In this document: piece by piece, positions 933-16,731 of the stretch
How the letters are laid out: every line of letters starts with the position of its first letter
How positions within the stretch are numbered: the stretch's first letter is position 1
Origin: a virus
Length of the DNA stretch: 28,683 nucleotides
IMG/VR virus record: IMGVR_UViG_3300030109_004105
Location: 1-28,683 of that record
Strand: one strand, 5' to 3'
The notes under the pieces: model-generated
Database searches by the model: none
What the model was told of the DNA's origin: nothing
Seen by the model: the letters and a program-made list of their open reading frames with translations, nothing else
Program-made: the position numbers and the translations under genes

Positions 933-961
933 AAAAAAAGGGATTGTCATGTAACAACCCC
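933..961 (-). terminator. Intrinsic terminator upstream of phoH
   Basis: On the minus strand GGGGTTGT (961-954), a six-base loop and ACAATCCC (947-940) form an 8-bp stem with one G-U pair. It is followed at once by seven T (939-933). This is a textbook rho-independent terminator. It ends transcription coming from the fmdB-like gene or from the late promoter at 1065-1072. Confidence 0.8.
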
Positions 962-1059
962 CCATTGATGCATGAGCCGAGGGATTTCAAAAGCTTACAA
1001 ACCCCTTTTGATGATACTTTAATATCTAAGGTTGTGCTGAAATTTCTAGCTCGTATCAT
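933..1059 (-). ncRNA. Candidate phage small RNA with its own promoter and terminator
   Basis: The gap between the fmdB-like gene and phoH has the parts of a stand-alone transcript of roughly 125 nt. A T4-type late box TATAAATA lies at 1072-1065. A perfect 7-bp pairing ATGATAC (1059-1053) with GTATCAT (1017-1011) encloses a small hairpin. A second stem AGGGGTTT (1006-999) with AAATCCCT (987-980) has 8 bp with one G-U pair. The intrinsic terminator 961-933 closes the unit. The stretch 960-1005 is visibly richer in G and C than its surroundings. An alternative reading is a 48-codon ORF (ATG at 1062, stop at 919-921), but it runs through the terminator and has no clear ribosome site. No known RNA family was recognised. 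Confidence 0.45.
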
Positions 1060-1064
1060 TATCA

Positions 1065-1072
1065 TATTTATA
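1065..1072 (-). promoter_or_regulatory. T4-type late promoter box
   Basis: TATAAATA on the minus strand, a full match to the T4 late promoter consensus. It sits over the last codons and stop of the fmdB-like gene and points at the candidate small RNA and phoH. Chance matches are possible in DNA this AT-rich; the terminator-bounded structured segment right behind it raises its credibility. Confidence 0.5.
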
Positions 1073-1387
1073 TTATTTCTTTTCTTTCGCTTGTTTAATT
1101 GCGTGTTCTTTATACACTCTTTCACCTTGTTTTTGTTTAATTGTCTTGTTATTTCCATATCTATCTGCAAGAGCACTATTCGGGTGTGCTTCTGATATCT
1201 TTTGTAATGTTTCTTTCCATCCCGTATCCATTTTTTGTTCTGTGTTTACACCAGATACAATTGCTGGAGCCGCAGGTGCTATTTGAATATGTGGATTTTC
1301 TTTTATATATTCTTCCATTTCTGAAATAGACATAAAAAGTTCTTCCGTTTTATTTGTATTTGTATTTAAAAAATCATAAGTAGGCAA
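1073..1387 (-). CDS. FmdB-like small protein lacking the zinc ribbon
   Basis: A 104-residue protein beginning MPTYDFLN, the conserved start of the FmdB/putative-regulatory-protein family and its phage relatives. SISEMEEYIKENPHI, IVSGVN and AHPNSALADRY are segments I recall from T4-like marine-phage homologues. Cellular FmdB proteins carry CxxC zinc-binding pairs; this protein has no cysteine at all, so zinc binding is lost and the function is unknown. The start codon is TTG (1387-1385), supported by the conserved MPTY and by GGAG eight bases upstream. A perfect sigma70-type promoter at 1413-1441 gives a leader of about 19 bases, and a terminator at 933-961 closes the unit. Confidence 0.85.
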   Translation of the reverse strand: MPTYDFLNTNTNKTEELFMSISEMEEYIKENPHIQIAPAAPAIVSGVNTEQKMDTGWKETLQKISEAHPNSALADRYGNNKTIKQKQGERVYKEHAIKQAKEKK

Positions 1388-1412
1388 AATTATATCTCCA
1401 CATTTTTAATAT

Positions 1413-1441
1413 ATTATACTTTATTTAATTAAGTTTGTCAA
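1413..1441 (-). promoter_or_regulatory. Consensus sigma70-type promoter for fmdB-like gene
   Basis: On the minus strand TTGACA (1441-1436), a 17-base spacer and TATAAT (1418-1413) match the bacterial housekeeping consensus exactly. The expected start near 1406 leaves a short leader holding the GGAG site of the TTG-started gene at 1387. The promoter overlaps the end of the SprT-like gene. Confidence 0.78.
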
Positions 1442-1987
1442 ATTTTTTTCATGCTTTTGAAGCATCTCAGTTAATCCACATTTTCTATCACCATACATAG
1501 GCACATATTCTTTTGTCCAATCTTCCTTTGCCCATTTTAATGATTCACACATACGTATAAACATTCCAATTTCTCTGCCATGTGCTTCTACTTCCCACGG
1601 CAAATCATAATAATCTACTCCTTTAGTATCTATTACAGTATCTTTCCATTTATATCTATTTGCATCTCTTACATATTCATACATCTCACCTTTCATCCAT
1701 TGTTTAAGATGTACTAGTTCATGTGCTAATGTTATGAGTTTGCTTCTAAGTCTTACTTGATTGTCTATATTAATAGTAAATTTTTTTGGTCTACGAGTTT
1801 CAAATTCATCATTCCATTCACATTCTCCTTCTATTTTGTAATCTTTAAAAAGAGTATCGCTATAAAGAATGGAAATTGAAAGGTTAGATTGAAGTCTTTT
1901 GGAAAGAAGATGGTCAAGATACCATCTTGTAGCTTGTTTAGTTTTGGTTTTGGTTTCGGTATCACAACCTCTTATAGTTAACCTCAT
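1421..1987 (-). CDS. SprT-like zinc metallopeptidase
   Basis: A 188-residue protein with LAHELVHLKQW around residues 88-97, giving the zinc-metallopeptidase motif H89-E90-x-x-H93. Further acidic and histidine residues follow in PWEVEAHGREI (130-140) and could supply the third ligand. The SprT-like/gluzincin type is the closest match from motif layout; related small metallopeptidases occur in T4-like marine phages. No signal peptide is seen, so it should act in the host cytoplasm, on an unknown substrate. The ATG at 1987 is only 8 bases from a late-type TATAAATA box (2003-1996). If that box is used, the message would be almost leaderless. A terminator-like hairpin separates it from the upstream HTH gene. 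Confidence 0.82.
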   Translation of the reverse strand: MRLTIRGCDTETKTKTKQATRWYLDHLLSKRLQSNLSISILYSDTLFKDYKIEGECEWNDEFETRRPKKFTINIDNQVRLRSKLITLAHELVHLKQWMKGEMYEYVRDANRYKWKDTVIDTKGVDYYDLPWEVEAHGREIGMFIRMCESLKWAKEDWTKEYVPMYGDRKCGLTEMLQKHEKNLTNLIK

Positions 1988-1995
1988 GATGAATT

Positions 1996-2003
1996 TATTT
2001 ATA
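1996..2003 (-). promoter_or_regulatory. Possible T4-type late promoter box
   Basis: TATAAATA on the minus strand, placed between a terminator-like hairpin (2030-2055) and the ATG at 1987. The position after a terminator supports a new transcription unit. The very short distance to the start codon counts against efficient translation from this start, so this is tentative. Confidence 0.35.
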
Positions 2004-2029
2004 TGGTAAATTTTTCATGAAATTGAAAA

Positions 2030-2055
2030 TGGAGCTCTGTGGGTACAAAGCTCCA
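2030..2055 (-). terminator. Terminator-like hairpin after HTH gene
   Basis: On the minus strand TGGAGCT (2055-2049) pairs with AGCTCCA (2036-2030) across a 12-base loop, and TTTTCAATTTC follows. The stem is good but the T-run is short. It shares three bases with the neighbouring hairpin 2053-2070, so the two cannot both form fully. Confidence 0.5.
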
Positions 2056-2070
2056 CTAACCGATTAGTGG
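2053..2070 (-). other. Perfect 7-bp hairpin with TCGG loop
   Basis: CCACTAA, loop TCGG and TTAGTGG on the minus strand, starting 3 bases after the HTH gene stop. A smaller GGGT/ACCC hairpin overlaps the stop codon itself (2071-2084). Together with the terminator-like stem this gives three hairpins in 55 bases, probably a 3' end or attenuation structure. Confidence 0.45.
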
Positions 2071-2073
2071 GTA

Positions 2074-2319
2074 TTATAACCCATAAACTGCTTCTAATCC
2101 CGCTTTAATGATAGATTGACTTGGTGTGCCAATTCTATATGAAGTACCATCTGCAGCTTTGTTTGCATACACACAATATCCTCGTCTTCTAAAACCGTCA
2201 ACGACAGTTCTTGGGGACTTGAAACCATATCTTTTCTGAACAGTTGTCCAAGAAATAGATTCGCCTCTAAGAAGCGCATTTAAGAACTTTGCAGTTCTTG
2301 TCATAGTTTGTCTTGCCAT
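2074..2319 (-). CDS. Small helix-turn-helix DNA-binding protein
   Basis: An 81-residue protein starting MARQTMTRTAKFLNALLRG. The segments ISWTTVQKRYGFKSPRTVVDGFRRRG and RIGTPSQSIIKAGL match a small helix-turn-helix family I recall from T4-like cyanophages, with a predicted winged-helix-like end. The reading frame stays open to a TTG at 2337, but the ATG at 2319 has AAGGTGA eight bases upstream and the family begins here, so I chose it. It is probably an early transcriptional regulator or DNA-binding protein; targets are unknown. It is driven by a perfect sigma70-type promoter at 2422-2450, and its roughly 95-base leader contains a 12-bp hairpin (2358-2393). Confidence 0.85.
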   Translation of the reverse strand: MARQTMTRTAKFLNALLRGESISWTTVQKRYGFKSPRTVVDGFRRRGYCVYANKAADGTSYRIGTPSQSIIKAGLEAVYGL

Positions 2320-2357
2320 GATATAATCACCTTGCAACTCAAATTTGTTATTTTATA

Positions 2358-2393
2358 CTAGGATAAAAACCCGTTGCTATATTTTTACCCTAG
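2358..2393 (-). promoter_or_regulatory. 12-bp leader hairpin of the HTH gene
   Basis: On the minus strand CTAGGGTAAAAA (2393-2382) pairs with TTTTTATCCTAG (2369-2358) across a 12-base loop. That is twelve consecutive pairs with a single G-U. It lies between the predicted transcription start (about 2415) and the ribosome site of the HTH gene, and no T-run follows, so it is not a terminator. It could be an mRNA stabiliser or a binding site for translational or autogenous control. Confidence 0.5.
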
Positions 2394-2421
2394 TTGTTAT
2401 ATTTCGTTTATTATACTAATA

Positions 2422-2450
2422 ATTATAACATATAATAAACAATTTGTCAA
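2422..2450 (-). promoter_or_regulatory. Consensus sigma70-type promoter (copy A of a duplicated element)
   Basis: TTGACA (2450-2445), a 17-base spacer and TATAAT (2427-2422) on the minus strand. The 38 bases 2422-2459 match 4419-4456 at 37 positions, so this is one copy of a duplicated promoter cassette. It starts directly at the stop codon of the DUF6433-like gene and drives the HTH gene. Confidence 0.82.
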
Positions 2451-2457
2451 ATCTTTA

Positions 2458-2925
2458 CTAATCTTTTAACATGAAATTGTCATCCCAATTAAATGCTTCT
2501 TTGCAAACTGGAATTGATAGTCCTTTATAAGTTCTACCCAACTTTTTATCTTTTGCTTGTACAACTAAGTTTGCTTCACCAGCACTCAATCCTTCTAACA
2601 ATTGAATAAAAAGTGATTCTCTACGTGATTGAACAATATTTGGTTTAGCAATAACACCAAGAAGTGATATAAAATTATCAAGAGTTCTATATTCTTTATG
2701 TAATCTTGTGTGTTCTGTGCCATCTGGTGCATCATTCGGGGTATAAGGTACTTTACCCTCTGGTAATAACCATTCTACATCTGGGTCGAAATTAGCTCTT
2801 AAAAACCAACGTAAACCATCACTATTGTGTTTTTTTAAAATCTCAATCTTTTCGTCTTTAGTTTTTGCTTTATGTACTCGTTCAAGAATTTCATGAAAAA
2901 GTGGAACATATGTTTCTGTAACCAT
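2458..2925 (-). CDS. DUF6433-like conserved phage protein
   Basis: A 155-residue protein. The segments AKTKDEKIEILKKHNS, LLPEGKVPYTPNDAPDGTEH, LEGLSAGEANLVVQAKDKK and YKGLSIPVCKEAFNWDD are those I associate with the DUF6433 family of T4-like marine phages. Its role is unknown. No membrane segment or signal peptide is visible. It looks like a soluble, mostly helical protein. The ATG at 2925 has AGGAG upstream, overlapping the last codons of the RNase H gene, so the two are translationally close and cotranscribed. Its stop abuts the next promoter. Confidence 0.85.
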   Translation of the reverse strand: MVTETYVPLFHEILERVHKAKTKDEKIEILKKHNSDGLRWFLRANFDPDVEWLLPEGKVPYTPNDAPDGTEHTRLHKEYRTLDNFISLLGVIAKPNIVQSRRESLFIQLLEGLSAGEANLVVQAKDKKLGRTYKGLSIPVCKEAFNWDDNFMLKD

Positions 2926-2927
2926 AA

Positions 2928-3776
2928 TTAAAAATCTCCTAAATTATTTGTCAATTCTTTTAACTTATTATTTATAAAGTAATTTATAAGGTTTTTTCTG
3001 TCACCCAAAATAGGTGTTGTCTTATAAGTTTCTTTAATCTTATCTTTAAGGTCTTGTGGTATTTTAGATAAATCTACTAATGTAGTATTTCTATGATAAT
3101 TTCTTTTTGCTTGTTCATTAGGGGCAACATCCATAAAATCATGTTCTACCCATGATTGTATTTTCTTTTTGGTAAGTGGTTTTTGTCTAATCTTATCTAC
3201 GAAAGAATTATCATCAGAAAGAACATTTGGTATTCCATCACTTCTATCACCTTTGATAATATGTTCTTTTAAATATAATTCTGGATTTTTACCATTCAAC
3301 ATTTTCTTTTGAACAGGATTCCATTGTTTTACATTTTTATATTTTTGTAATTGGATAAAATCTTTATCACCAGAAACAATCATAATCTTTTCTTTTTGTG
3401 ATTCACAAATAGTTGCTATAATATCATCTGCTTCTGCACCATATACTTCTAACATTTTATATGGAAAATTTTCTCTAAGTTCTTCTTTTAATACATTAAG
3501 TGTATTGAAAATAGTATTCCAATCAAAATCACTTGATTCTCTCATTTTCTTACGATTGGATTTATATTGTGGAAAAACGTCTTTTCTCCAATAGTGTTTA
3601 CTATCATAACATAAAACCAATTCACCATAATCTTCTACAAATTTAATTCTATATGTACGAATAGAATTCAATACCATATGTCTAACTAAATCTGGATTGA
3701 CTTCTAAATCTTTTGACTGACCTATCTGCATCATTAATGAAGATAAAGTTACTTGATTCATATCAACTAATACCAT
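2928..3776 (-). CDS. rnh: T4-type RNase H / 5'-3' exonuclease
   Basis: A 282-residue protein of the FEN-1/T4 RNase H family, which removes RNA primers and flaps from lagging-strand fragments during phage replication. Visible metal-site motifs are D5 in MVLVDMNQ, YGAEADDII (acidic residues 115, 117, 118), VSGDKDFIQL (D137, D139) and KGDRSDGIPNV (D177, D180). The last motif opens the helix-hairpin-helix-like DNA-binding region. Length is close to T4 RNase H (about 305 residues). The ATG at 3776 has a GAGGA site. It lies 2 bases downstream of the 126-residue gene and just before the DUF6433-like gene in one operon. Confidence 0.92.
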   Translation of the reverse strand: MVLVDMNQVTLSSLMMQIGQSKDLEVNPDLVRHMVLNSIRTYRIKFVEDYGELVLCYDSKHYWRKDVFPQYKSNRKKMRESSDFDWNTIFNTLNVLKEELRENFPYKMLEVYGAEADDIIATICESQKEKIMIVSGDKDFIQLQKYKNVKQWNPVQKKMLNGKNPELYLKEHIIKGDRSDGIPNVLSDDNSFVDKIRQKPLTKKKIQSWVEHDFMDVAPNEQAKRNYHRNTTLVDLSKIPQDLKDKIKETYKTTPILGDRKNLINYFINNKLKELTNNLGDF

Positions 3777-3778
3777 AA

Positions 3779-4159
3779 TTATTCCTCTTTCAAGATTTTG
3801 TCAAAATCTTTATTATTCAATTGTGATAAATCAAACTGAGAATAAACCTTCTGCGTTTGTTCATTTACAATTGATGTCATTGCCATATCCGATACAATTT
3901 GAATAGGATGAAAAAAACCAAAATGTCGAAGTATACAAGATTTTAAAGTTTCATTTACTAAACCAAAATCTTTTATAAAAACATCTTTTTCTCTATCTGA
4001 AACTTTATTTTCATCAAGAACACGAAGTGTTTGTGCTATAATCGAATTTGTTATATCTTCAGCAAACATCAAGTTATATCTTAACTGACTAGTTTCTTCC
4101 ATTTCTGGAACTTTAACATGAGTTTTCCACGGCCCTTGTATCACATTATCATCAGTCAT
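3779..4159 (-). CDS. Conserved phage protein of unknown function
   Basis: A 126-residue soluble protein with VIQGPWKTHVKVP near the start and a predominantly helical body. It includes AEDITNSIIAQTLRVLDE and IKDFGLVNETLKSCILRHF. I recall similar proteins beside RNase H or S21 in T4-like marine phages, but no function is known to me. Its ATG overlaps the stop of the S21 gene (ATGA, 4156-4159), so translation is probably coupled. It is followed after 2 bases by RNase H, suggesting an early operon with a replication or translation role. Confidence 0.8.
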   Translation of the reverse strand: MTDDNVIQGPWKTHVKVPEMEETSQLRYNLMFAEDITNSIIAQTLRVLDENKVSDREKDVFIKDFGLVNETLKSCILRHFGFFHPIQIVSDMAMTSIVNEQTQKVYSQFDLSQLNNKDFDKILKEE

Positions 4160-4407
4160 TTTCTATAGTTTCCTTTACTCATACCTTTTTTTGCTTGTGT
4201 CTTTTTTTGTCGTATAATCGCAGCGGCTTTTTTCATTCTGCGTTTTTCACTAGGTTTCACATAATGTTCTCGTTTTTTCAATTCAAACATCAAACCATCT
4301 TTTTGTATTCTTTTCTTTAAAAGTCGCAATGCTCCTTCTACATTATCATTTCTTACATCAATAGTGTAAGAATCTAAATCTTCTTTTGTGTGCATTTTTC
4401 TTATCAT
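4156..4407 (-). CDS. rpsU: Ribosomal protein bS21
   Basis: An approximately 83-residue, strongly basic protein with the bS21 core. The N-terminal strand and helix read YTIDVRNDNVEGALRLLKKR. KREHYVKPSEKRRMKKAAA follows, then a lysine-rich tail. bS21 sits on the small ribosomal subunit near the anti-Shine-Dalgarno region and affects initiation. Phage copies are known, notably in pelagiphages, and are thought to enter host ribosomes. The frame is open to a TTG at 4416, but that lies upstream of the transcription start expected from the promoter at 4419-4447. ATG 4407 (5-base leader) or ATG 4395 (about 17-base leader) is therefore more likely; I use 4407. The end overlaps the next gene by ATGA. 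Confidence 0.9.
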   Translation of the reverse strand: MIRKMHTKEDLDSYTIDVRNDNVEGALRLLKKRIQKDGLMFELKKREHYVKPSEKRRMKKAAAIIRQKKTQAKKGMSKGNYRK

Positions 4408-4418
4408 ATTATACAAAT

Positions 4419-4447
4419 ATTATAACATAGAATAAACAATTTGTCAA
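4419..4447 (-). promoter_or_regulatory. Consensus sigma70-type promoter (copy B of the duplicated element)
   Basis: TTGACA (4447-4442), a 17-base spacer and TATAAT (4424-4419) on the minus strand. It differs from the copy at 2422-2459 by one base in 38. It overlaps the stop of the 148-residue gene and drives the S21 to DUF6433 operon. Confidence 0.82.
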
Positions 4448-4451
4448 ATCT

Positions 4452-4898
4452 TTACTGTAAAACCCTGTCTTTATTGGGTTTTTTGGGATTATCCTTTTTA
4501 TCCGTTTTATCATCATCTCGTTCTTTAATCGCTTTATGGTAATAATGTTCACCTAAATCTTGAAGTATCATCAAAATATGAGTTAAAAATGCTCTTAATT
4601 TCACATCATCTCGATAAGTTTCATAGATATATGGGTTTAATTTATGGAAACTATCACTAAGTTTGTGATAAGATTTTTCAATATTTAATTCTTCACTATC
4701 AATAGGAATATCTAATTCATCCAATCTTTCTAATTGCTTTATATTTTCTAATAATCCCTCTTCATATGGTCGTTCAAACTCTAGTAATAATCCTCTTAAT
4801 AATCCATCTTTATTGAAATGTTCCTTAATGTAAACTTTAATATCTACAAAACGCTTTCGAAGAGATATGAAACTTCTCTCCAATTCTTGGTGATTCAT
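4452..4898 (-). CDS. Hypothetical helical protein
   Basis: A 148-residue protein that I do not recognise. The N-terminal two thirds look alpha-helical and amphipathic (RSFISLRKRFVDIKVYIKEH, LENIKQLERLDELD, LTHILMILQDLGEHYYHKA). The last 25 residues are a charged low-complexity tail rich in D, K and P. There is no signal peptide or clear membrane span. An AAGAGA site precedes the ATG at 4898. It lies between the acidic 99-residue protein and S21, downstream of the dual promoter region at 5.3 kb. Early or both early and late expression is therefore likely. Confidence 0.75.
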   Translation of the reverse strand: MNHQELERSFISLRKRFVDIKVYIKEHFNKDGLLRGLLLEFERPYEEGLLENIKQLERLDELDIPIDSEELNIEKSYHKLSDSFHKLNPYIYETYRDDVKLRAFLTHILMILQDLGEHYYHKAIKERDDDKTDKKDNPKKPNKDRVLQ

Positions 4899-4928
4899 TC
4901 TCTTTTTTTGTTTTCTATTTGTATCATT

Positions 4929-5228
4929 TTAACTATCCAATCTTAACACCCCTATTTTATAATTTAAATTGTGTTTATTTTCTTTATCTACTTCTTCGTA
5001 GAAATAAGGTTTGCTGCCAGCAATCTGAAGATTTTCTAAACTTTTCACAATTTCTTCAGCATGCTCCTTTCCCTTATCATCTAACTCATCAATGGAAATT
5101 TTTACTTCTTCGCCTTCCCAATCATATTCTAATTCTGGCGATTGTCTACTACAATAATCTTCTAATATTTCTTCAAAATCTTGATAAAGTGTATCAAATG
5201 ACCTTTCATCTGTTTCTATAGCTGTCAT
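4929..5228 (-). CDS. Hypothetical acidic protein
   Basis: A 99-residue acidic protein without a recognised family. It has stretches such as DTLYQDFEEILEDYC and YDWEGEEVKISIDELDD, a strongly negative charge, and no membrane segment. The ATG at 5228 is preceded by AGGAGA. It is the first gene after a perfect sigma70-type promoter (5263-5291) and a late box (5302-5309), so it may be made both early and late. Small acidic phage proteins in this position are often host-takeover or DNA-mimic proteins; nothing in this sequence proves that. Confidence 0.75.
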   Translation of the reverse strand: MTAIETDERSFDTLYQDFEEILEDYCSRQSPELEYDWEGEEVKISIDELDDKGKEHAEEIVKSLENLQIAGSKPYFYEEVDKENKHNLNYKIGVLRLDS

Positions 5229-5262
5229 AGTAATTCTCTCCTTTAATTGAAATCATACTATA

Positions 5263-5291
5263 ATTATAACATTTTCTCATAAAAATGTCAA
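5263..5291 (-). promoter_or_regulatory. Consensus sigma70-type promoter
   Basis: TTGACA (5291-5286), a 17-base spacer and TATAAT (5268-5263) on the minus strand, with the same TGTTATAAT ending as the two duplicated promoters. The predicted start near 5256 gives a leader of about 28 bases to the ATG at 5228, including AGGAGA. Confidence 0.82.
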
Positions 5292-5301
5292 TAGTAACTT
5301 A

Positions 5302-5309
5302 TATTTATA
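5302..5309 (-). promoter_or_regulatory. T4-type late promoter box, tandem to the early promoter
   Basis: TATAAATA on the minus strand, 10 bases upstream of the -35 hexamer of the sigma70-type promoter and directly after a terminator-like hairpin. The arrangement terminator, late box, early promoter, gene suggests expression of the same genes in both phases. Confidence 0.55.
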
Positions 5310-5310
5310 G

Positions 5311-5330
5311 GAAAAACCGACAAAATCGGT
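5311..5330 (-). terminator. Short terminator after the exported late module
   Basis: ACCGA, loop TTTTG and TCGGT on the minus strand (5330-5316) form a 5-bp stem followed by TTTTCC. It is weak but well placed, 35 bases after the stop of the 90-residue membrane protein and before the next promoters. Confidence 0.5.
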
Positions 5331-5364
5331 ATAAAATTGGAAATTTTAAGGTCTTTTATATAAT

Positions 5365-5637
5365 TTAGTTGCCTAATGGGTTACTAACTTTTAATTTCAA
5401 CTCAGCCATTTTAGCATCTACTACTTCAATTGTTTTTCGAAGAACTTCATTGCTAGTTTCTAAGTCAGCAACTCTTGCTTCAAGTTTTTCTACAGCATCG
5501 CTACCTTGACTTTTTTCTATGCCATCCAATCTTGCGTTGAATTGGCCCCAGGCGACAAACCCACCGCCGAGCGTGATGACTACACCAAGTATTACGGCAT
5601 ACTTTGAAAAGTTGTCTGATATTTTTGATATATCCAT
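5365..5637 (-). CDS. Small membrane protein with coiled coil
   Basis: A 90-residue protein with one hydrophobic segment, YAVILGVVITLGGGFVAWG (about residues 13-31). A heptad-like helix follows (IEKSQGSDAVEKLEARVADL and onward to about residue 82). This is an N-terminal anchor with a coiled coil, as in small i-spanin-like or XhlA-like phage membrane proteins. A proper spanin pair exists elsewhere in the window, so its job here is open. It lies 11 bases after the acidic repeat lipoprotein gene, in the same late unit that begins at the promoter 9022-9029. AAGG precedes the ATG. It is the last gene before a terminator. Confidence 0.8.
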   Translation of the reverse strand: MDISKISDNFSKYAVILGVVITLGGGFVAWGQFNARLDGIEKSQGSDAVEKLEARVADLETSNEVLRKTIEVVDAKMAELKLKVSNPLGN

Positions 5638-5648
5638 TTTTAATTACC

Positions 5649-8114
5649 TTACCTCTTTAAACTTTTTGTTTTGAGAATATATAATTCTCGTTCTAATTGT
5701 TGTCTTTTGTTTACAGCATTATTTAGGTTAGTTTGATATTTCAACATACCATCTTCGCCACTCATTGCTACAAGTACAGTATTTTCTTTTTCATAAATGC
5801 TATAATTATATTCACCTAACATAACATTATTATCCTCATATATTTTTGATTGATTTTTATATAATTGCCGATTATCAAAAAAACGAGAATTCCTATTCTT
5901 ATACGCTTCAGTTATATTTGGTTGATTCTTTACCATCACTTCTGATACAATATAACTTACAGCCACTAATTGTTTATTTACATCTGCAACCTTTTCCTCA
6001 ATCTTTTCAGTAAGTTTATCAATATCTAATTTTAGTTCAACTTTTTGTTGTTTTTGTTCTTCTGCGTTTGAAATTGTTGTTTTTGTTTTTGTTTTATCTA
6101 TTACTTTTACTTTACTTGTTGTAGTATCAGATTTTTTATCTTTTGGTTTATCTTCTTCTTCATTAGATTCTTTTTTAGATATAAGAGTTGACTTTTCTTC
6201 TTTTTCCTCAGTTGGAGAATCTACTTCTTCTTCAACACTATCTGATTTTGCAATTGGTTCTGATTCAATTGATTCTTCTGTAGTTTCAGTAGGCATTTCT
6301 TCAGTTACTTCATCTGCTTCTGCAATTAAATTATCTTCTGTTGTTGTAGGTTTTTCTTCAACTACTTCTTCTTCATTTGTCATACTTGTAAATGTTTGTG
6401 TAGTAGGTTTTTCTTCTACCATAGGTTCTTCACCCATTTCTTCTGATGCATCTGAAACTAAATCTTCTGTTTCAACTGATTCATTGCTATCAAATTCTTC
6501 TGATTCATTAGAAGCAACATTGCTTTCAAATGTCATCGTAGATGGTTGTTCGTCCATGTCCATATCCATTTCATCATCACCAACACTACTTTCAAATGTC
6601 ATAGTAGATGGTTGTTCATCCATCTCCATATCCATTTCTGTTTCGATATCCATTCCTGTTTCCATATCTGGTTTCTCACCGATAACTTGAAATGTTGTCG
6701 TTTGTGTTTCATCAATATCCATATCCACTTCTGTTTCTATCATTGTTGGTGGTGGTGGTAGTTCTTCATACATGTCCATTTCCATATCCATTTCTGTTTC
6801 CATCATTGGTGGTGGTGGTAACGCTTCAAACATGTCCATTGGCATATCTAATTCTTCATATAGTTCAGTTGACATTTCTTCAAATTCTTCCATCATTGGT
6901 GGTTCTTCAAATCCCATCTCAGTAAATGTTTCTTCTTCTATATTCAAATCATCTACACTTCCCATATCATTATCTGTTTCAAAAAAATCAAAGATATCAC
7001 CCATTTCCATTCCATCAAAAACACCAGCAAACATATCTTCAATATCTTCTTCTACTATACTTGTTTCAAATGTTTCTTCAAAAGCTTCATCTTCAATTAC
7101 ATAAACTTCTTCTTCAAAAAATTCTATTTCTGTATCAAAGTATGCATCTTCTTCTTCAAATCTTTCCTCAATTGTATCTTCAACTGTTTCAAGGTCGTCA
7201 AATATATCATCAGTAATATCAGTTATGCCTTCATCGGGACAAGTTGATGGTGTTTTTTCCCAGCAAAATACAACTGCTGTGCTAACTGATTCTGTTATAA
7301 CTGTATTTGATGTTGTAACAGGGGCAACCCATTGAGTAGTAATCTCATTGTATTCTATATCCAATTCTACATCATCAATATCTGGCCCCCAATGCCCACC
7401 ATGATAACCTGTACCAGCATTAAAAATAGTTACTTTAATAGTATAATCTGTTTCTGTATTTCCAGTATTAATATAAGTATCGCTATAATTAACAAAAATA
7501 TTATTAGTATTACTAGCATTTTTCCCAGATATTATTCTTTCTTGTGTCGTTACATTTCCACTAGCACCTGTTATAGTTTGTGTCATTGTAGTAGTATTAC
7601 TTCCATAATTATGCCAATACCATATGTCTGCTGATAATTCAGATTTAAATCCATTATTAATTTCTGCTTGAGTTAATCCACCATCATCTTTAACAGATAT
7701 ACTTTGTTCTGCTTTGGAATCAAGTCCAGTAGCCCAAGAGCCGCCTGGTGCATTACCACCACCATAATTTGCTGCTTCTCCACCATGATGGGAATCATAA
7801 CCAGTCATCGTCCAACCATCATCTGAATATGTTCCCCCTGTACCAAAAGTAGAGTTCGTTAAAACATCTCCTGTTTTTGTTGTTTGTTCTGAAACAACAT
7901 TTTGATTATAACCCGGTACAGTTGTTGTGGTTGTGGTGTTTGTGGTAGTAGTTGTGACAGTTGAGGTATCACCTTGTTGTGGTGTATTTTGTTGAATGAC
8001 ATCTACTGATGTTGAAGTAACTGTAACATTTGCTCGAGTCATTCCAGTCCAAGAACACGATGCTATAAAAACTATGAAAAGATACTTTAATATAGTTTTA
8101 ACGTATTTGAACAA
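5649..8114 (-). CDS. Large acidic repeat lipoprotein, exported
   Basis: About 821 residues. The N-terminus has a basic-hydrophobic signal, YLFIVFIASC, ending in a lipobox-like I-A-S-C; cleavage after MTRA is a second possibility. Next come a threonine-rich linker and a domain of roughly 180 residues rich in G, W and H (HHGGEAANYGGG, GYHGGHWGPDIDD), possibly a beta-sandwich. A long E/D/M-rich region with tandem repeats follows, then a lysine-rich coiled-coil-like end. The frame opens at TTG 8126, but TTG 8114 has GGAG seven bases upstream, so I chose 8114. No ATG lies before residue 24. It follows the secreted 284-residue gene by 15 bases, suggesting that both act in the host envelope. Function unknown. 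Confidence 0.82.
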   Translation of the reverse strand: MFKYVKTILKYLFIVFIASCSWTGMTRANVTVTSTSVDVIQQNTPQQGDTSTVTTTTTNTTTTTTVPGYNQNVVSEQTTKTGDVLTNSTFGTGGTYSDDGWTMTGYDSHHGGEAANYGGGNAPGGSWATGLDSKAEQSISVKDDGGLTQAEINNGFKSELSADIWYWHNYGSNTTTMTQTITGASGNVTTQERIISGKNASNTNNIFVNYSDTYINTGNTETDYTIKVTIFNAGTGYHGGHWGPDIDDVELDIEYNEITTQWVAPVTTSNTVITESVSTAVVFCWEKTPSTCPDEGITDITDDIFDDLETVEDTIEERFEEEDAYFDTEIEFFEEEVYVIEDEAFEETFETSIVEEDIEDMFAGVFDGMEMGDIFDFFETDNDMGSVDDLNIEEETFTEMGFEEPPMMEEFEEMSTELYEELDMPMDMFEALPPPPMMETEMDMEMDMYEELPPPPTMIETEVDMDIDETQTTTFQVIGEKPDMETGMDIETEMDMEMDEQPSTMTFESSVGDDEMDMDMDEQPSTMTFESNVASNESEEFDSNESVETEDLVSDASEEMGEEPMVEEKPTTQTFTSMTNEEEVVEEKPTTTEDNLIAEADEVTEEMPTETTEESIESEPIAKSDSVEEEVDSPTEEKEEKSTLISKKESNEEEDKPKDKKSDTTTSKVKVIDKTKTKTTISNAEEQKQQKVELKLDIDKLTEKIEEKVADVNKQLVAVSYIVSEVMVKNQPNITEAYKNRNSRFFDNRQLYKNQSKIYEDNNVMLGEYNYSIYEKENTVLVAMSGEDGMLKYQTNLNNAVNKRQQLERELYILKTKSLKR
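6523..6654 (-). repeat. Two tandem 66-bp coding repeats
   Basis: Two units with a 66-base period inside the acidic lipoprotein gene. Each encodes a 22-residue unit starting DEQPSTMTFES, followed by more variable acidic residues. The DNA is nearly identical over the first 45 bases of each unit, which points to recent duplication. Confidence 0.8.
6721..6840 (-). repeat. Two tandem 60-bp coding repeats
   Basis: Two 60-base units in register inside the acidic lipoprotein gene. They encode about 20 residues each around LPPPP and METEMDMEMD. Proline tetrads separate methionine/aspartate-rich stretches. The region is likely extended and prone to repeat-number change. Confidence 0.8.
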
Positions 8115-8129
8115 AATATTCTCCAATAA

Positions 8130-8984
8130 TTAGTTCGTATGTGGAAGTTTAACTCCACCAACACTTTGGTGTCCAGAAAAGTCAACAGGTTTAGTCTCTA
8201 AATGTTCAATTTTAAAATCAAAGTTAAACCAAGAACTCTTTTCTTTCTTTGGAATATTAGCTTTTTCTTCTTTTTTAAGTTCCTCTTGTAATTTTTCTAG
8301 TTCTTTCATTTTTCTTTTAGTTTCAATTTCTGCTTTCTTTTGTTCTGCTTTTTTAATCGCATCAATTTTCTTTTGTGCTTCTTTACTTAATTTTTCGTTG
8401 ATATATTCTCTCTTTTTAAGTTTGTCTGTGTATCTATCATAATCTGGTCTTTCTATATCATATTTTTTCCATTGTGCGTTAGCTGCACTACCAATATTTC
8501 CTTCGAATGGACAAGGTGTACCTGCATGTTCCATAGCAGAAAATACTCTATCATCTTGACAAAGAATTGCTATTGATGCAACTCTCATTTGATAATCATA
8601 AAGAAGTTTTGATAATTTCATTCGTTCACAATTCTGGTCGGTAAAATATGTTCCACCTGATACACCAAGACCAAGTGTTTGCATACCAAAACCTACACCA
8701 ACTGTACAAAGGTCTTGTGAGTAACTTGACATAGAGGGCGCACTTGCATTTCCAACAGGTATGGATTTTTGATTTGTTGTTGATGAATTGCTTGTGGTGT
8801 TAGTTGTATTATTAACTTGTCCATCATTATTGTTTGTAGTTGTACTAGTATACCCACCACTTATAGAAGTGTTACTGCCACTTGCATTAGTTTGATTAGA
8901 TGTGGATTGGTCGTTTGCAAAAACAAAACTTAATGGCGTAAATGTAATTGTCAATATCAGGAAGAAAAATAAAAATTTATGCAT
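8130..8984 (-). CDS. Secreted conserved phage protein with cysteine motifs
   Basis: A 284-residue protein with a clear Sec signal peptide (hydrophobic LFFFLILTITFTPLSFVFA, cleavage after about residue 23). An N/T/S-rich linker runs to about residue 80. The conserved domain carries SAPSMSSYSQDLCTVGVGFG, DQNCERMKLSKLL, VASIAILCQDDRVF and GTPCPFEGNIG. I recall this cysteine-containing domain from diverse phages with no function assigned. The four cysteines would fit disulphides in the periplasm. The end is a lysine/glutamate-rich helix (about 190-245). The ATG at 8984 has GAGGT upstream. It is the first gene behind the late promoter 9022-9029 and is closely linked to the lipoprotein gene. Confidence 0.85.
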   Translation of the reverse strand: MHKFLFFFLILTITFTPLSFVFANDQSTSNQTNASGSNTSISGGYTSTTTNNNDGQVNNTTNTTSNSSTTNQKSIPVGNASAPSMSSYSQDLCTVGVGFGMQTLGLGVSGGTYFTDQNCERMKLSKLLYDYQMRVASIAILCQDDRVFSAMEHAGTPCPFEGNIGSAANAQWKKYDIERPDYDRYTDKLKKREYINEKLSKEAQKKIDAIKKAEQKKAEIETKRKMKELEKLQEELKKEEKANIPKKEKSSWFNFDFKIEHLETKPVDFSGHQSVGGVKLPHTN

Positions 8985-9021
8985 ATGAAACCTCTAAAAT
9001 ACTCTGTTTTGTAGTCACATA

Positions 9022-9029
9022 TATTTATA
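9022..9029 (-). promoter_or_regulatory. T4-type late promoter for the exported module
   Basis: TATAAATA on the minus strand, 37 bases upstream of the ATG of the secreted 284-residue protein, in a short non-coding gap. The position and exact consensus match make this one of the better late promoter candidates. Confidence 0.65.
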
Positions 9030-9074
9030 AATTTATAGAATTTTATCTAACAAAATTGTTAAAATAATTGGGTA

Positions 9075-9314
9075 TTATTGTTGTTTGCCTAAAGTAAAAT
9101 CAATTAATTTTTGTTGATTTCTTCGTCCTCGTTCTTCTTGTGCTTGTCCTTTCCAATTAAAAATAATTTCACCTAAATCATTATCAAGTAATTCTTTAAG
9201 TTCTTCCTCAGAGAATTCTCCAAAAACTTGTTCCACTTGAGTTTCTAATTGTGATAAAAGTTTATTTATTTTTGTAGTAATAAAATCATTATTATTAATT
9301 TTGTTCTTGCTCAT
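9075..9314 (-). CDS. Small hypothetical protein downstream of ruvC-like gene
   Basis: A 79-residue charged helical protein, not recognised. FITTKINKLLSQLETQVEQV and FSEEELKELLDNDLGEII suggest amphipathic helices, followed by a basic end (AQEERGRRNQQKL). The frame is open to 9350. I place the start at ATG 9314 (MSKNKINNND), with GGGA six bases upstream; this overlaps the end of the RuvC-like gene by 20 bases in another frame. An ATG at 9326 is an alternative. It is likely the last gene of the primase-nrdJ-ruvC unit, before the late promoter at 9022-9029. Confidence 0.72.
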   Translation of the reverse strand: MSKNKINNNDFITTKINKLLSQLETQVEQVFGEFSEEELKELLDNDLGEIIFNWKGQAQEERGRRNQQKLIDFTLGKQQ

Positions 9315-9882
9315 ATTGTTTCCCATATTTACAAATAAAATAAGCATCAACTATATCAGTCAAAGGGTTTGATATAGAAGAATTTAAAATATTTTGTAAA
9401 TCAATTTTGGTTTCATTATAGAATGCTTCATACATTAATTCTTTATCAGCATTTCCTTTTCCAGTAGCATATTTTTTTATAATGCTCGGTGGTAATAAGA
9501 TAATAGGATTGCCTTGTAGATAAAGATTATATTTTAAGATGCCAGTATTTTCTGCTATAGAAAAAACTCTGCCTGTGCTTCCCATAGAATAATTTTCTAA
9601 GTAGACCTTTATAGAACTATCCAAATTCAGATGCACCATTATCCAATTCGAAAGTGCGTGAAATCTTTGTTGTTGAGATGTCCAATCTTTATAGAGAGAT
9701 TGTCCCATAATTTTATCTTCAGCAAAATGCCCTAAGTATTTTTTCTTGTCGGTTAGATAAAAAATCTTACAAGTTTGCCAAGATACTTCTTCAGCATACG
9801 ATAAACATATAGCAGGACTGCTCATAGAATAATCAATTCCAACACAATTAACTCGACTACCATATTCAATATTTTGTATCAT
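9295..9882 (-). CDS. RuvC-like Holliday-junction/branch nuclease
   Basis: A 195-residue protein with the RNase H-fold layout of RuvC-type resolvases. D17 lies in VGIDYSMSSPAI, E96 in KVYLENYSMGSTG, a basic loop in KKYATGKGNADK (136-147), and D176/D179 in LTDIVDAYFICKY. These four acids are the expected metal-binding set. The N-terminal AENTGILKY segment is typical of phage RuvC-like proteins. In T4-like marine phages lacking endonuclease VII such a protein is presumed to resolve branched DNA before packaging. It lies downstream of nrdJ, across a structured 97-base gap, and the ribosome site is weak, so the RNA structure may matter for its expression. Confidence 0.85.
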   Translation of the reverse strand: MIQNIEYGSRVNCVGIDYSMSSPAICLSYAEEVSWQTCKIFYLTDKKKYLGHFAEDKIMGQSLYKDWTSQQQRFHALSNWIMVHLNLDSSIKVYLENYSMGSTGRVFSIAENTGILKYNLYLQGNPIILLPPSIIKKYATGKGNADKELMYEAFYNETKIDLQNILNSSISNPLTDIVDAYFICKYGKQYEQEQN

Positions 9883-9905
9883 TTCAAATCAATCATTTTA
9901 AGACC

Positions 9906-9968
9906 TTTTAAGGGGTGGGATACAAACACCCTTGGCGCTATTAACAGCGTCCAAATGCCCCTTTAAAA
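9906..9968 (-). other. Three-helix RNA element between nrdJ and ruvC-like gene
   Basis: On the minus strand TTTTAAAGGGG (9968-9958) pairs with CCCCTTAAAA (9915-9906), with one bulged A. Inside, TTGG-A-CGCT (9954-9946) pairs with AGCG-CCAA (9939-9932) around a 6-base loop. GGG (9931-9929) can pair with CCC (9919-9917) as a third arm. An alternative GGGTG/CACCC arm would compete with the basal stem. There is no T-run, so it is not a standard terminator. It starts 12 bases after the nrdJ stop. It could be an mRNA 3'-end protector, a processing site or a regulatory leader for the ruvC-like gene. No known riboswitch was recognised. Confidence 0.5.
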
Positions 9969-9979
9969 TCGCTCTGGCA

Positions 9980-11929
9980 CTAAGATATACCACCGATTCC
10001 TGTTGGGGTACTAAAAGTAACATCACAACCCTCTGGCCCAGTACACGCTAATTCTTGACTAGCGATAGTCTGGTCAGATAGTTCATATTTACTTAGTAAT
10101 CCCCAGTCCACATCTTTCGGCATCTTCTTCACAAACTCATTATACTCCTTCTCGGTACAATCTTGATATGGAGCTTGTTTATAGATATGGTCACTATGAG
10201 GTAGAAAAGAAACACCAGACATATAATCAAAATTCTCATAAACCCAAGCACCAACTGCCATCCACTCATCTTCTTTTACAGAAATAGTTACAGATGGTTT
10301 ATGTTCACACCAATTTACTTGATATATTTTCCAAATTGCTAGTTGTTCTATTGCACTCATATCAGTTCTAAAAACAGAATCTTTATCTGCTTTTTGTGGA
10401 AAAGAAAAAACAATACTATGTTTATTCATATAATCTTCTTCATGAGGAAATCCAGCATCAATCATTAATTGTGTTAATGGGTCTTTCGCATCTCCACGCA
10501 CAGTCCTAATATAAAATGGATTATGTCTTGTATGAATACCAGACGCAGAATCTACTAATTGAGAAACTGTACCAGATGGTTTAACACAGGTAGTTGCAAC
10601 TGATTGATTAATACCAATATCTTTTGCATACTTTTTATTTGTATCAACTGCAATTTGTTTTAATTCTTGTAATCTTTTTTCTAAACCACTTTCTTTACCA
10701 TTTGTAAAACGACATTCCATAATACCTGTAAGTGAAACTCCAAGAAGTCTTTCTTCTTTACAATTCTTATTCCATTCTTTAGCAATATATTTAAAATTGA
10801 CTAATGTAGATTGAAAAGTTCCTAAAATGGTTGCAAGTTTTACTTTTTCTTTTAAGGTTTCCATAGTATCTTCTGCTCTTACCACGACTTCTGATAAATT
10901 ACAGAATTCTCTTGAACGTAAAATGATTTCAGAACAAGGATTAGTTCCAAATTCGATTCCATCAGTTTCTCTTCTACCATTTTCAGAAGCAACCTTAGTG
11001 GCAGCATCACGATTAAAAATTCCTCTTTCACCAGATTTAGAATCATATAATGACCTCCATTCTTTTAAGAATATTCCCATATCTGGAGTTTCAGTATATA
11101 TCGCAGAATTATTTGCAAGTGCTCTTTGTGGTTCTGTTTCCCACCATCTTCCTGTCTTTGCAGCTCTCATTCTATCATCAGATAAATTAGAAAGAGAAAT
11201 TAATGCAGAACGTCTTACACCACCAACAACAACAACCTCTGCAATCTTACAAATAATATCATGACATTCAAGAGAAGTAAGTTTTCTACCAGCGGCACTA
11301 CGCATTACCTTAACAGAAAATTTAAATAAATCATCTAATGGCTCTGGCCCAGATGCACGACCACCAAAAGTTTTTAATGGTGCTCCTGCTGGTCTTACCT
11401 TACTTAAATCCCATTTTGGAACTTGTCCATGATATAACATCGCAAGAAGTTCTTTGAATGCTTTTGCCCAACCAAGTTTTGAATCTGCGACAACTATTTT
11501 TGTATCACTAGGATGAAATTCTTCTGCGACATCTGGAAGATTATTAACCGATTGTCTATCAACAGAAAATCCTACTCCAGTTCCATTCATTAAAATGTAA
11601 AGAATTTCGTCAAATGCTTGTGGTCTATCTACTGCAACATACGAACAATTATATCCTGCTATGTTTTCTTTTTCAAGTGCTTCACCAGCGGTCATAAGAC
11701 ATCTCATAGATGGCATAATTTTTAAGTCTAAAATATAATCTTTCAATTGTTTTTTCAATTTATCTGGCATTTTATATTTGTGTAATTTTTGTAAATGGGA
11801 TTCAAAAAAAGTAAAATATCTTGATATTGTTTCTTCCCATGTTTCCCGTCTATTTTGCTCAGGTATCCATCTTGAATATCTTGATAGGTGAATAAATTGT
11901 TGATATTGAGTAGGTAAGTTTTTTTGCAT
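9980..11929 (-). CDS. nrdJ: Class II (B12-dependent) ribonucleotide reductase, monomeric type
   Basis: A 649-residue reductase that makes deoxynucleotides for phage DNA synthesis. C95 in GYNCSY and C343 in EFCNLSE fit the redox pair. C332 in TNPCSEII is the radical cysteine, with E334 beside it. The 11-residue spacing of C332 and C343 matches C408/C419 of the Lactobacillus leichmannii RTPR. NGTGVGFSVDR (115-125) and VVGGVRRSA (234-242) are further family motifs. C629 and C635 in the tail ACTGPEGC would serve re-reduction. No small-subunit or activase gene is nearby, which fits the adenosylcobalamin class. AGGAG precedes the ATG. It follows the primase gene by 14 bases. Confidence 0.93.
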   Translation of the reverse strand: MQKNLPTQYQQFIHLSRYSRWIPEQNRRETWEETISRYFTFFESHLQKLHKYKMPDKLKKQLKDYILDLKIMPSMRCLMTAGEALEKENIAGYNCSYVAVDRPQAFDEILYILMNGTGVGFSVDRQSVNNLPDVAEEFHPSDTKIVVADSKLGWAKAFKELLAMLYHGQVPKWDLSKVRPAGAPLKTFGGRASGPEPLDDLFKFSVKVMRSAAGRKLTSLECHDIICKIAEVVVVGGVRRSALISLSNLSDDRMRAAKTGRWWETEPQRALANNSAIYTETPDMGIFLKEWRSLYDSKSGERGIFNRDAATKVASENGRRETDGIEFGTNPCSEIILRSREFCNLSEVVVRAEDTMETLKEKVKLATILGTFQSTLVNFKYIAKEWNKNCKEERLLGVSLTGIMECRFTNGKESGLEKRLQELKQIAVDTNKKYAKDIGINQSVATTCVKPSGTVSQLVDSASGIHTRHNPFYIRTVRGDAKDPLTQLMIDAGFPHEEDYMNKHSIVFSFPQKADKDSVFRTDMSAIEQLAIWKIYQVNWCEHKPSVTISVKEDEWMAVGAWVYENFDYMSGVSFLPHSDHIYKQAPYQDCTEKEYNEFVKKMPKDVDWGLLSKYELSDQTIASQELACTGPEGCDVTFSTPTGIGGIS

Positions 11930-11943
11930 TTGTTTATGACTCC

Positions 11944-12960
11944 TTAAATTTTTTTCCAGTTTATTAATCTTGTTTTAGCATGTAAATTAGAAAAAGTATT
12001 CTTACTTATAATTCTATGAATTTCAACAGAAGTTCTCCCAGAAAGTATCATATCATTAATATCTTTTTCTTCAATATTATCAGGCCAAATTACAATTGAT
12101 TGATTTTGTTCAATTGATTTTTCCATTCTTTTTATTATTTCCACATTTCTTGGCTCATTATCATAGATAACCGTATAATCTTTTTCATCCATATCTAATT
12201 TAAAATCTGCACCAGCAACAGCAAGACAATTATCAAGAAACAGACTATCAATCGGCCCTTCAACAACAAAAACATGTTGGTTAGAATCAATTCTATCAAG
12301 ACCAAATATTTTATTTTTTTCTTTTAACATTATAGTAATATATTTTGGATTTTCTTTTCCAAATGCTCTGCCTTGATAACCAAAGAAAACATTTTCCTTA
12401 TCAAAAAAAGGAATAATTAATCTTGGGTGGTCTCCATTAAGTGATGGAAACTTATTAGGTAAAAGTGTATTCGTAAATTTAAAAAATTCGGGTGCAAAAT
12501 ATAATTGAGAATAATATTTTTCTGGAATTTTTCTTTGTTCTACAAATTTTACTGCTGGGTGTGATGAAGTTTTTAAATCATCAAAAGTTTTAAGTTGATA
12601 TAAAAAATCTTCAAACATAAGTTGGTCTTGTGTATTGAATTCTGGTGGTTTAAAATCAAATGTTGGTTTTTCAGAAGAATGAATACCAGATGTATATCTC
12701 GCCATTACATACTCTTTATGTAAATCTGCGTCAACATATTTTATTAAATTTGACAATGTTTTTCCCACTCCACAGTTATGACATTTGTAAAAGAAATCAT
12801 TCTTTTTTTGAAAAACATATCCTCTGGCTTTCACTTTACTTGTTTTGGAATCGCCACAACAAGGACATCTAAAATTAAAAAGATAATTTCCCTTTTCTTT
12901 AAATTGTTTTAATTGAGGAGCTAATCTCCTCATGAATTCTATATCAATATGGTTGTACAT
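11944..12960 (-). CDS. DNA primase, T4 gp61-like
   Basis: A 338-residue primase. The N-terminal zinc finger is RCPCCGDSK (C32, C35) with KCHNCGVG (C60, C63), for template recognition. The TOPRIM-type catalytic core has VFVVEGPIDSLF (E234, D238), then IYDNEPRN (D267) and a later DIND. This is the layout of phage primases that make RNA primers with the replicative helicase. It acts in the cytoplasm at the phage replisome. The start at ATG 12960 lies about 12 bases after the transcription start expected from the promoter at 12979-13007. This gene opens the replication/nucleotide operon with nrdJ and the ruvC-like gene. Confidence 0.9.
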   Translation of the reverse strand: MYNHIDIEFMRRLAPQLKQFKEKGNYLFNFRCPCCGDSKTSKVKARGYVFQKKNDFFYKCHNCGVGKTLSNLIKYVDADLHKEYVMARYTSGIHSSEKPTFDFKPPEFNTQDQLMFEDFLYQLKTFDDLKTSSHPAVKFVEQRKIPEKYYSQLYFAPEFFKFTNTLLPNKFPSLNGDHPRLIIPFFDKENVFFGYQGRAFGKENPKYITIMLKEKNKIFGLDRIDSNQHVFVVEGPIDSLFLDNCLAVAGADFKLDMDEKDYTVIYDNEPRNVEIIKRMEKSIEQNQSIVIWPDNIEEKDINDMILSGRTSVEIHRIISKNTFSNLHAKTRLINWKKI

Positions 12961-12978
12961 AATAAATCGTTTCTTATA

Positions 12979-13007
12979 ATACTACACGAAAAAAAAGAAA
13001 ATGTCAA
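12979..13007 (-). promoter_or_regulatory. Sigma70-type promoter for the primase operon
   Basis: TTGACA (13007-13002), a 17-base T-rich spacer and TAGTAT (12984-12979) on the minus strand. The -35 is perfect and the -10 is imperfect. It begins just after the stop of the coiled-coil gene and marks the switch from the lysis cassette to replication genes. Confidence 0.6.
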
Positions 13008-13009
13008 GA

Positions 13010-13516
13010 TTAAAATTTGATAAATTTATTTAATATAAATCCCACTACAACTGCACCACCAATGATTAACCATCTCCATTTTTCCAAAAGACTAACTCTA
13101 TCATTTAAGTTAACCTTTAAACTTTCAATATGTTGTTTTAGTTGTTGTTGAATTTTTTGGTTTTCATTTATAATGTGTTGTTCGGTATTAGTAATCCTTT
13201 CATATAAGTCTCTATTAATTGTACTAATTCTACTATGAAGTTCTTTAATATCGGTTGCTAATTCTTTTCTTTTGTTTTCTATTTGTGCTGAATTATCACT
13301 AAGAATTTCATCTTGTCTTTCAATCTTTTCTTCATGAACTGCTAACATGATATGAATAGAATTTGATACATCTATAATCTTCGTAATTGCTTTGTCTAAT
13401 CTGATATGAATATTTTGCATATCTGCAACATCTCGTTGCAGAAATTCAATTGCTGTTTCTAAATTCTTTTTATTCGATGATACATTATTACCATTTCCTT
13501 TAATCATTTCTGACAT
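13010..13516 (-). CDS. Tail-anchored coiled-coil protein
   Basis: A 168-residue protein made of a long helical coiled coil (about residues 18-140). It ends in a C-terminal membrane anchor WRWLIIGGAVVVGFILNKF (about 147-165). This is the topology of XhlA-like/hemolysin-like phage proteins, although XhlA itself is shorter. The LEKWRWLIIGG end is one I recall from T4-like marine phages. It is the last gene of the lysis-type cassette, 23 bases after the 53-residue membrane protein, with AGGAG before the ATG at 13516. It may act with the holin or stabilise a membrane complex; the function is inferred from topology and position only. Confidence 0.8.
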   Translation of the reverse strand: MSEMIKGNGNNVSSNKKNLETAIEFLQRDVADMQNIHIRLDKAITKIIDVSNSIHIMLAVHEEKIERQDEILSDNSAQIENKRKELATDIKELHSRISTINRDLYERITNTEQHIINENQKIQQQLKQHIESLKVNLNDRVSLLEKWRWLIIGGAVVVGFILNKFIKF

Positions 13517-13539
13517 GTTAGCAGTTCTCCTTAATTAAT

Positions 13540-13701
13540 TTAGTCTTCTTTAGTTATCAAAGTCCATAAACCATAAGCTATAGCGCCATATGCACATAAC
13601 TTAGCAATGGGACTAAAAAAAACAACAACAACACCAAATCCAATTAGTGTTGCGCCATCCCATGATGTTCTTTCTTTAAGTCTATTGTTTATCCAGTTCA
13701 T
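13540..13701 (-). CDS. 53-residue membrane protein, holin candidate
   Basis: A 53-residue gene starting ATG 13701 with a strong AGGAG seven bases upstream and ending TAA at 13540. It begins MNWINNRLKERTSWDGA. Two hydrophobic stretches follow (LIGFGVVVVFFSPIA, then LCAYGAIAYGLWTLI), and it ends in KED. A basic N-terminus, a two-helix hairpin and a short charged tail are the features of a small class II holin. I recall similar NRRLKERTSWDGA proteins in cyanophages. It sits inside the spanin cassette, between DUF1353 and the tail-anchored coiled coil. Holin function is an inference. Confidence 0.8.
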   Translation of the reverse strand: MNWINNRLKERTSWDGATLIGFGVVVVFFSPIAKLCAYGAIAYGLWTLITKED

Positions 13702-13719
13702 AAAGTTACTCCTTTTAGT

Positions 13720-14319
13720 TTACTTAATTTTAGCATTGACTTTACGATGTTTATTCCACGCCATAAAACCACCTAGTCTTAATGACCAGTATGCTAAGTA
13801 GTTCATAATAAAGAAACCGTTTACTTCTATACCAATATCTCTAAAGATTTCATCTGCTCTTTTTTGAGTTATGATACCCATAGTTTGTTTCTTTAAACCC
13901 GGCTTTGGTGGTCGTATTAATAAGGTTTGATACTTGTAAGCATAATCATGTACAAGTCCCCCCATTAATAATACGCCAATTGGGGATAAAAATGTATGAA
14001 GAAACTTCGGAATTGAAGCTCCATCAAATTCAAATCCTTTAGGTATGATATATTTTTTACCTTCAAGTTCGAAAGTAAAATCTTTTGCAATCTCCCAATG
14101 TCTTACACCAAGTAACCACATTAGGATACCTTTCCAGAAACCTTTACCTTTTGTCTTTATAGGTAATGGTTTCATATGAGGCATTTCTGTATATTTAAAA
14201 TTGACTCTATTTTCGTTATTTTTATCAAATAGGTTAACAACACAACCTAATATTACTAAAGCAATCACTATTGTCCATTGCCAAAATTTCATTGCTAATG
14301 CTATTATATCTAGTTCCAT
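13720..14319 (-). CDS. DUF1353 protein with N-terminal membrane anchor
   Basis: A 199-residue protein. An N-terminal hydrophobic segment (about residues 11-31, WQWTIVIALVILGCVVNL) precedes a DUF1353 domain. That domain has GFEFDGASIPKFLHTFLSP and VHDYAYKY, containing the D-G-A-S-I-P and H-D motifs conserved in the family. The biochemical activity of DUF1353 is not known; its location next to spanins suggests an envelope or lysis role. No lysozyme or amidase motif is present. It starts 1 base after the o-spanin stop, with GAGG upstream. Orientation of the anchor (N-in) would put the domain in the periplasm. Confidence 0.87.
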   Translation of the reverse strand: MELDIIALAMKFWQWTIVIALVILGCVVNLFDKNNENRVNFKYTEMPHMKPLPIKTKGKGFWKGILMWLLGVRHWEIAKDFTFELEGKKYIIPKGFEFDGASIPKFLHTFLSPIGVLLMGGLVHDYAYKYQTLLIRPPKPGLKKQTMGIITQKRADEIFRDIGIEVNGFFIMNYLAYWSLRLGGFMAWNKHRKVNAKIK

Positions 14320-14320
14320 T

Positions 14321-14707: not shown

Positions 14708-14713
14708 AATATA

Positions 14714-15097: not shown

Positions 15098-15114
15098 TAT
15101 ATTTCAAACTCCTT

Positions 15115-15183: not shown

Positions 15184-15192
15184 ACTATTATC

Positions 15193-15200: not shown

Positions 15201-15207
15201 TTATCTC

Positions 15208-15813: not shown

Positions 15814-15815
15814 TT

Positions 15816-16714: not shown

Positions 16715-16731
16715 TTCTATTTTCCTTTATC

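Follow-up and report, generated by a model that had tools for sequence, protein, structure and literature searches.

Structured small RNAs described from T4-like phages are few, and most lack an assigned role. The manA and wcaG motifs, both in Rfam, are structured RNAs of marine T4-like phages situated upstream of genes (PMC2864571), and the T4-like marine cyanophage S-PM2 encodes the small non-coding RNA CfrI (PMC2984593). A regulatory RNA, the glnA glutamine riboswitch, has been reported in the pelagiphage relative Melnitz (PMC9004378), whilst an earlier study of pelagimyophages sought known riboswitches only (PMC7029224). Phage T4 has two small stable non-tRNA RNAs, rnaC and rnaD, of unknown role. 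To these can be added a folded RNA of about 120 bases, not catalogued before, which many T4-related ocean viruses have ahead of phoH; from its sequence it looks late-expressed and cut off before phoH is reached.

The element, its neighbours and its distribution

The window, i.e. the whole stretch of 28,683 nt analysed, is part of a 29-kb T4-like marine phage record, and the element lies within the 157 nt that separate an FmdB-like gene from phoH (Table 1). A first-pass annotation, made from the letters alone, had proposed a candidate small RNA here, comprising a late box, 7-bp and 8-bp stems and a terminator in a segment of raised GC content. The GC content is indeed higher (37.8% in 933-1059 compared with 30.6% across the window), but the rise is mild, with around 10% of 127-nt stretches equally high. 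As a single sequence, the window element folded only marginally better than shuffles (z -1.77, 10/200). It is thus conservation that sets the element above chance, since the window fold and box alone would not convince.

Relatives were found in viral metagenome contigs by a PhoH search and then with a phoH-independent DNA pattern taken from the element, giving approximately 170 loci where the FmdB-like gene and phoH again flank the element; nearly 200 viral-metagenome relatives carry it between the FmdB-like gene and phoH. In three pattern scans phoH followed all 137 true elements with enough flanking sequence (86/86, 23/23 and 28/28), six further matches of the second pattern being left out as chance because they lacked the rest of the core. 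The FmdB-like gene lay upstream in 84 of 86, and one of the two exceptions (L100) was a chance match. Conservation of the element extends over PhoH proteins with only around 60% shared identity.

The gap between the FmdB-like gene and phoH is bimodal, at either about 0 nt or at least 95 nt, the few intermediates having mostly other gene arrangements. The empty state, in which the genes abut, is found in cyanophages, Melnitz and several metagenomic clades. Since the two genes abut when the element is lacking, the insert has the form of a promoter-RNA-terminator cassette. The labels form clusters on a PhoH tree, where 'absent' takes about eight changes, several rows having an unassigned or duplicate label, and this pattern is compatible with repeated loss of an old element; being missing from several lineages, the element is not essential. 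Scanned with the exact pattern, 84,980 genomes of bacteria and archaea gave no match, hence no hint of a host origin, and no homologue turned up among phage isolates and plasmids when the element was searched by blastn.

The same slot holds different structured RNAs in one clade (L253 561-688, L282 880-1007 and L254 2380-2500, with fold z-scores of -3.8, -5.3 and -2.7 respectively; L251 is similar by eye), these four sharing a layout of late box, closed stem, GC hairpin and phoH. Downstream of phoH, permuted (two-piece) tmRNA genes were seen in L023, L032, L031, L078, L022, L253, L264 and L282.

As the first-pass annotation had supposed, the element belongs to no family that we could find. Nothing in the window scored at or above the gathering threshold of Rfam 15 (4227 families), 15 relatives returned tmRNA and tRNA only, both outside the element, and low-threshold Rfam scans of the window, L022 and L209 gave chance matches only. 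No match to the covariance model was found in the T4 rnaC/rnaD region (L205), and an RNA before phoH was not reported in the open-access literature searched.

Table 1. Features of the phoH locus in the window, in window coordinates. Alignment columns refer to the 44-sequence alignment.
Feature	Positions	Strand	Details
phoH	202-915	minus	downstream of element; SD AGAGG 926-930
Predicted discrete RNA, 127 nt	933-1059	minus	from box/P1 and terminator geometry; first base 1059, 5 nt after the box; end at the U-run
Intrinsic terminator	933-961	minus	8-bp stem GGGGTTGT 961-954 / ACAATCCC 947-940; seven T 939-933
3' strands of P2 and P1, TC-GGCTC-AT-GCATC	967-980	minus	
Conserved 3' core, A-AGCT, bulge and P3 3' strand GAAAT	984-996	minus	
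Apical region	997-1035	minus	length varies between subtypes
P3 (ATTTC) and P3b (AGC), 5' strand	1036-1043	minus	pairs with 984-988 and 992-994; P3 1043-1039/988-984, P3b 1038-1036/994-992; columns 24-31/74-84
P2 5' strand, GAGCT, A bulge, GA	1045-1052	minus	pairs with 974-980; 1052-1048/978-974 plus 1046-1045/980-979; columns 8-15/88-94
P1 5' strand, GATAC	1053-1057	minus	pairs with GCATC 967-971; 1057-1053/971-967; columns 3-7/97-101
T4-type late promoter box, TATAAATA	1065-1072	minus	present in sequence; conserved in relatives
FmdB-like gene, PHROG 385 'transcriptional regulator'	1073-1387	minus	upstream of element; stop codon adjoins late box

Covariation supports one long interrupted hairpin

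A hairpin of helices P1-P2-P3-P4 was supported by an alignment of 44 divergent relatives, aligned by sequence. Over its 26 pairs 97.8% of cells were paired, and double-sided changes were present at 17 of the 26 (110 cells). None of 500 shuffles scored as high, although shuffle tests are inflated by relatedness; sliding the partner strand, a control which retains relatedness, gave 10-19 double-changed cells. RNAalifold, unaided, returned essentially the same fold from this alignment, a single long interrupted hairpin. The covariance model matched L080, which was outside the seed, with 64 bits (E 1e-15), whilst the window aligned over the whole model at 51 bits, by construction as it was in the seed. 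Given these comparisons, we regard it as established that the segment is a conserved structured RNA.

Variation on this fold is seen among the relatives. In the window, as in L001-L006, P1 contains a single A.C mismatch that is paired in L007, the window's clade (L001-L014) has a shorter loop before P3 and a longer apical part than the majority, and L147 has an additional hairpin within the bulge between P2 and P1.

Of the three stems for which compensatory changes had been proposed as a check, the terminator is conserved, but the other two are unsupported. The 7-bp stem (ATGATAC 1059-1053 / GTATCAT 1017-1011) is perfect in the window but confined to the window's own clade, and it uses the P1 5' strand together with an apical segment kept only there; an alternative fold of 1011-1059, in which the P1 5' strand pairs with the apical segment (7 bp) while P1 is mismatched, is possible. 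The 8-bp stem, which we read as AGGGGTTT (1006-999) with AAATCCCT (987-980), is already lost in L007 and L011.

Late box, terminator and predicted ends of the RNA

The late box that the first-pass annotation had pointed to is present, and its position relative to P1 is regular: among 87 unique boxed elements, 53 have (N)ATAAATA ending exactly 5 nt short of P1, and in L092 and L173, which have a longer P1, the start of P1 remains near the box. Of 106 unique elements, about 8 lack the box or have a degenerate one. Transcription from T4 late promoters starts approximately 6 nt downstream of the box. In S-PM2 the late box is NATAAATA (PMC2984593). Taking together the 5-nt spacing, the T4 start distance and the S-PM2 box, the RNA is expected to start with the first base of P1, which on sequence grounds puts a promoter at its 5' end, as an independent sRNA gene needs.

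Across the window the count of TATAAATA is at chance (8 observed, 6.3 expected), and all eight boxes, from 1065 to 19960, sit on the gene strand. One of them, at 1996-2003, is so near the ATG at 1987 that a late transcript would be nearly leaderless.

At the other end, the proposed terminator proved to be a conserved feature: 91 of the 92 elements that share the window's type have a stem of 8-16 bp directly after the core/P1. The tail after the stem contains nearly no G and is 46-69% T at positions 3-10, compared with 30% farther on, the U-tract being weak in some terminators. A terminator of its own, which an independent sRNA gene also needs, is thereby present in the window's kind and absent from the HTVC008M types considered below. 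In predicted foldings of the full RNA the terminator stem has a probability of 0.97. In the search for an antiterminator, pairing between the core and terminator arms came to 4.97 bp with an element's own arms and 4.96 bp with arms of other phages, and none was conserved. A terminator that nearly always forms, combined with no better pairing to its own arms, speaks against terminator switching and favours a discrete RNA. The RNA is predicted to be 99-165 nt long (median 118), and its 127 nt in the window, between its own box and terminator, are consistent with the unit of about 125 nt resembling an independent RNA gene that had been proposed.

A related core in the cultured phage HTVC008M

The cultured isolate Pelagibacter phage HTVC008M has a 108-nt gap before phoH, with a late box TCTAAATA. 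Together with its metagenomic kin (L206-L219, L222) it shares the core C-AGC-A...GUA-AGCU-GA-G, or AGU/AACU in some. P3 is fully re-paired in this lineage, as GTTAAC/GTTAAC, GACAAC/GTTGTC or GTTGC/GCAAC, and in a separate alignment of the lineage the nine pairs of P3-P3b were 100% paired with 25 double changes (0-8 in slid controls). RNAalifold also gives a flanking GA/UC pair. A pooled P3 set agrees with the re-pairing, though biased in being drawn by requiring at least five P3 pairs. The first model scores HTVC008M at only 5.6 bits, so it is the core held in common and the lineage's own alignment, not this score, that support the kinship. HTVC008M types have no terminator, and their RNA would begin directly at the core and continue into phoH.

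A probable discrete late RNA and its alternatives

From the structure, its conservation, the geometry of promoter and terminator and the locus we infer a transcript, made late and acting in trans: a discrete small RNA that would work through its conserved core late in infection, a reading we hold to be somewhat probable. The phage late RNA polymerase complex would recognise TATAAATA and start 5-6 nt downstream, the first transcribed base also being the first of P1, the closing helix. The RNA would then fold, in the order P1, P2, internal loop, P3, AGC/GCU with a two- or three-base bulge and apical hairpin, into one long interrupted hairpin, and transcription would stop at the adjoining hairpin ahead of the phoH ribosome site, leaving both RNA ends in helices. 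The invariant part, C-AGC-A...A-AGCU-GR-G plus the GA/UC pair, is most probably where a protein or ligand binds, and through this putative site the RNA would act late in infection. Action on host mRNA, which the first-pass annotation had put forward, is conjectural. In the HTVC008M lineage, where the terminator is missing, phoH transcripts would carry this core at their 5' end.

The element could instead be a cis-acting 5' leader of phoH, whose core would bind a phage protein (e.g. PhoH) or a small ligand and so control read-through at the hairpin or phoH translation. Its constant site before phoH and the terminator-less HTVC008M types do speak for a link with that gene: the element always adjoins phoH, the transcript would have the core at its 5' end, and one core precedes two downstream arrangements (a terminator or, in HTVC008M types, the RBS region directly), as in leader regulators. 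However, with the upstream and downstream neighbours both fixed the location is uninformative, and a gene for a small protein (approximately 106-117 aa, with a signal-peptide-like start) intervenes between element and phoH in L092 and L173, which we count in favour of the discrete RNA. A terminator that always forms, with no conserved pairing of its arms to the core, likewise speaks against a leader, and attenuation of phoH, suggested in the first-pass annotation, is weakened as no conserved antiterminator was found. We consider a phoH leader possible, if on balance doubtful.

A passive role, either as a 5' structure protecting the late phoH transcript or as a terminator insulating phoH from the FmdB-like gene, would require no specific partner and would suit an RNA predicted to begin inside a helix and end in a GC-rich hairpin, but core bases that stay near-invariant, both paired and unpaired, across re-paired lineages need a sequence-specific reason, making this improbable. 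A small protein gene is far less credible still: the 48-codon frame (1062-919) is uninterrupted in the window and partially so in L007, but no frame is open throughout, the reading frame breaks in L011 within the terminator arm, the spacing of conserved blocks is spread over three frames (34/15/27) and pairs change on both sides, so that in the relatives it is the pairing and not the frame that is conserved, and this candidate was rejected. Chance structure in AT-rich DNA, which the weak single-sequence fold might suggest, is contradicted by two covariation alignments and the out-of-seed match to L080, and its probability is negligible.

Returning to the discrete RNA, we tentatively extend it to a conjecture that falls a little short of probable, namely that the core defines an RNA class which would bind a specific phage or host protein (e.g. 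PhoH or RNA polymerase) and reprogramme the late phase of infection by T4-like phages whose marine hosts are not cyanobacteria, other RNAs filling the slot in one sister clade. Rfam has no entry for the element, which is frequent in ocean metagenomes and occurs in its core form in HTVC008M; as this phage is in culture, the transcript, its partner and its effect on phoH, a gene whose own role in phages is unknown, are open to direct test.

Comparison with described RNAs

Leader riboswitches with terminator or RBS platforms resemble the element in having one core before one gene with two downstream arrangements, but differ from it in that it has no conserved antiterminator. The Melnitz glutamine riboswitch lies at the tmRNA locus, and Melnitz has no element before phoH (PMC9004378). 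T4 rnaC and rnaD sit in the T4 tRNA cluster, where the new model matches nothing. CfrI is an antisense RNA of approximately 225 nt at psbA and is not described as a conserved phoH hairpin (PMC2984593). The manA and wcaG motifs were described in cyanophages, where their association is with carbohydrate and light genes (PMC2864571), unlike the element described here, which matches no Rfam family and accompanies phoH.
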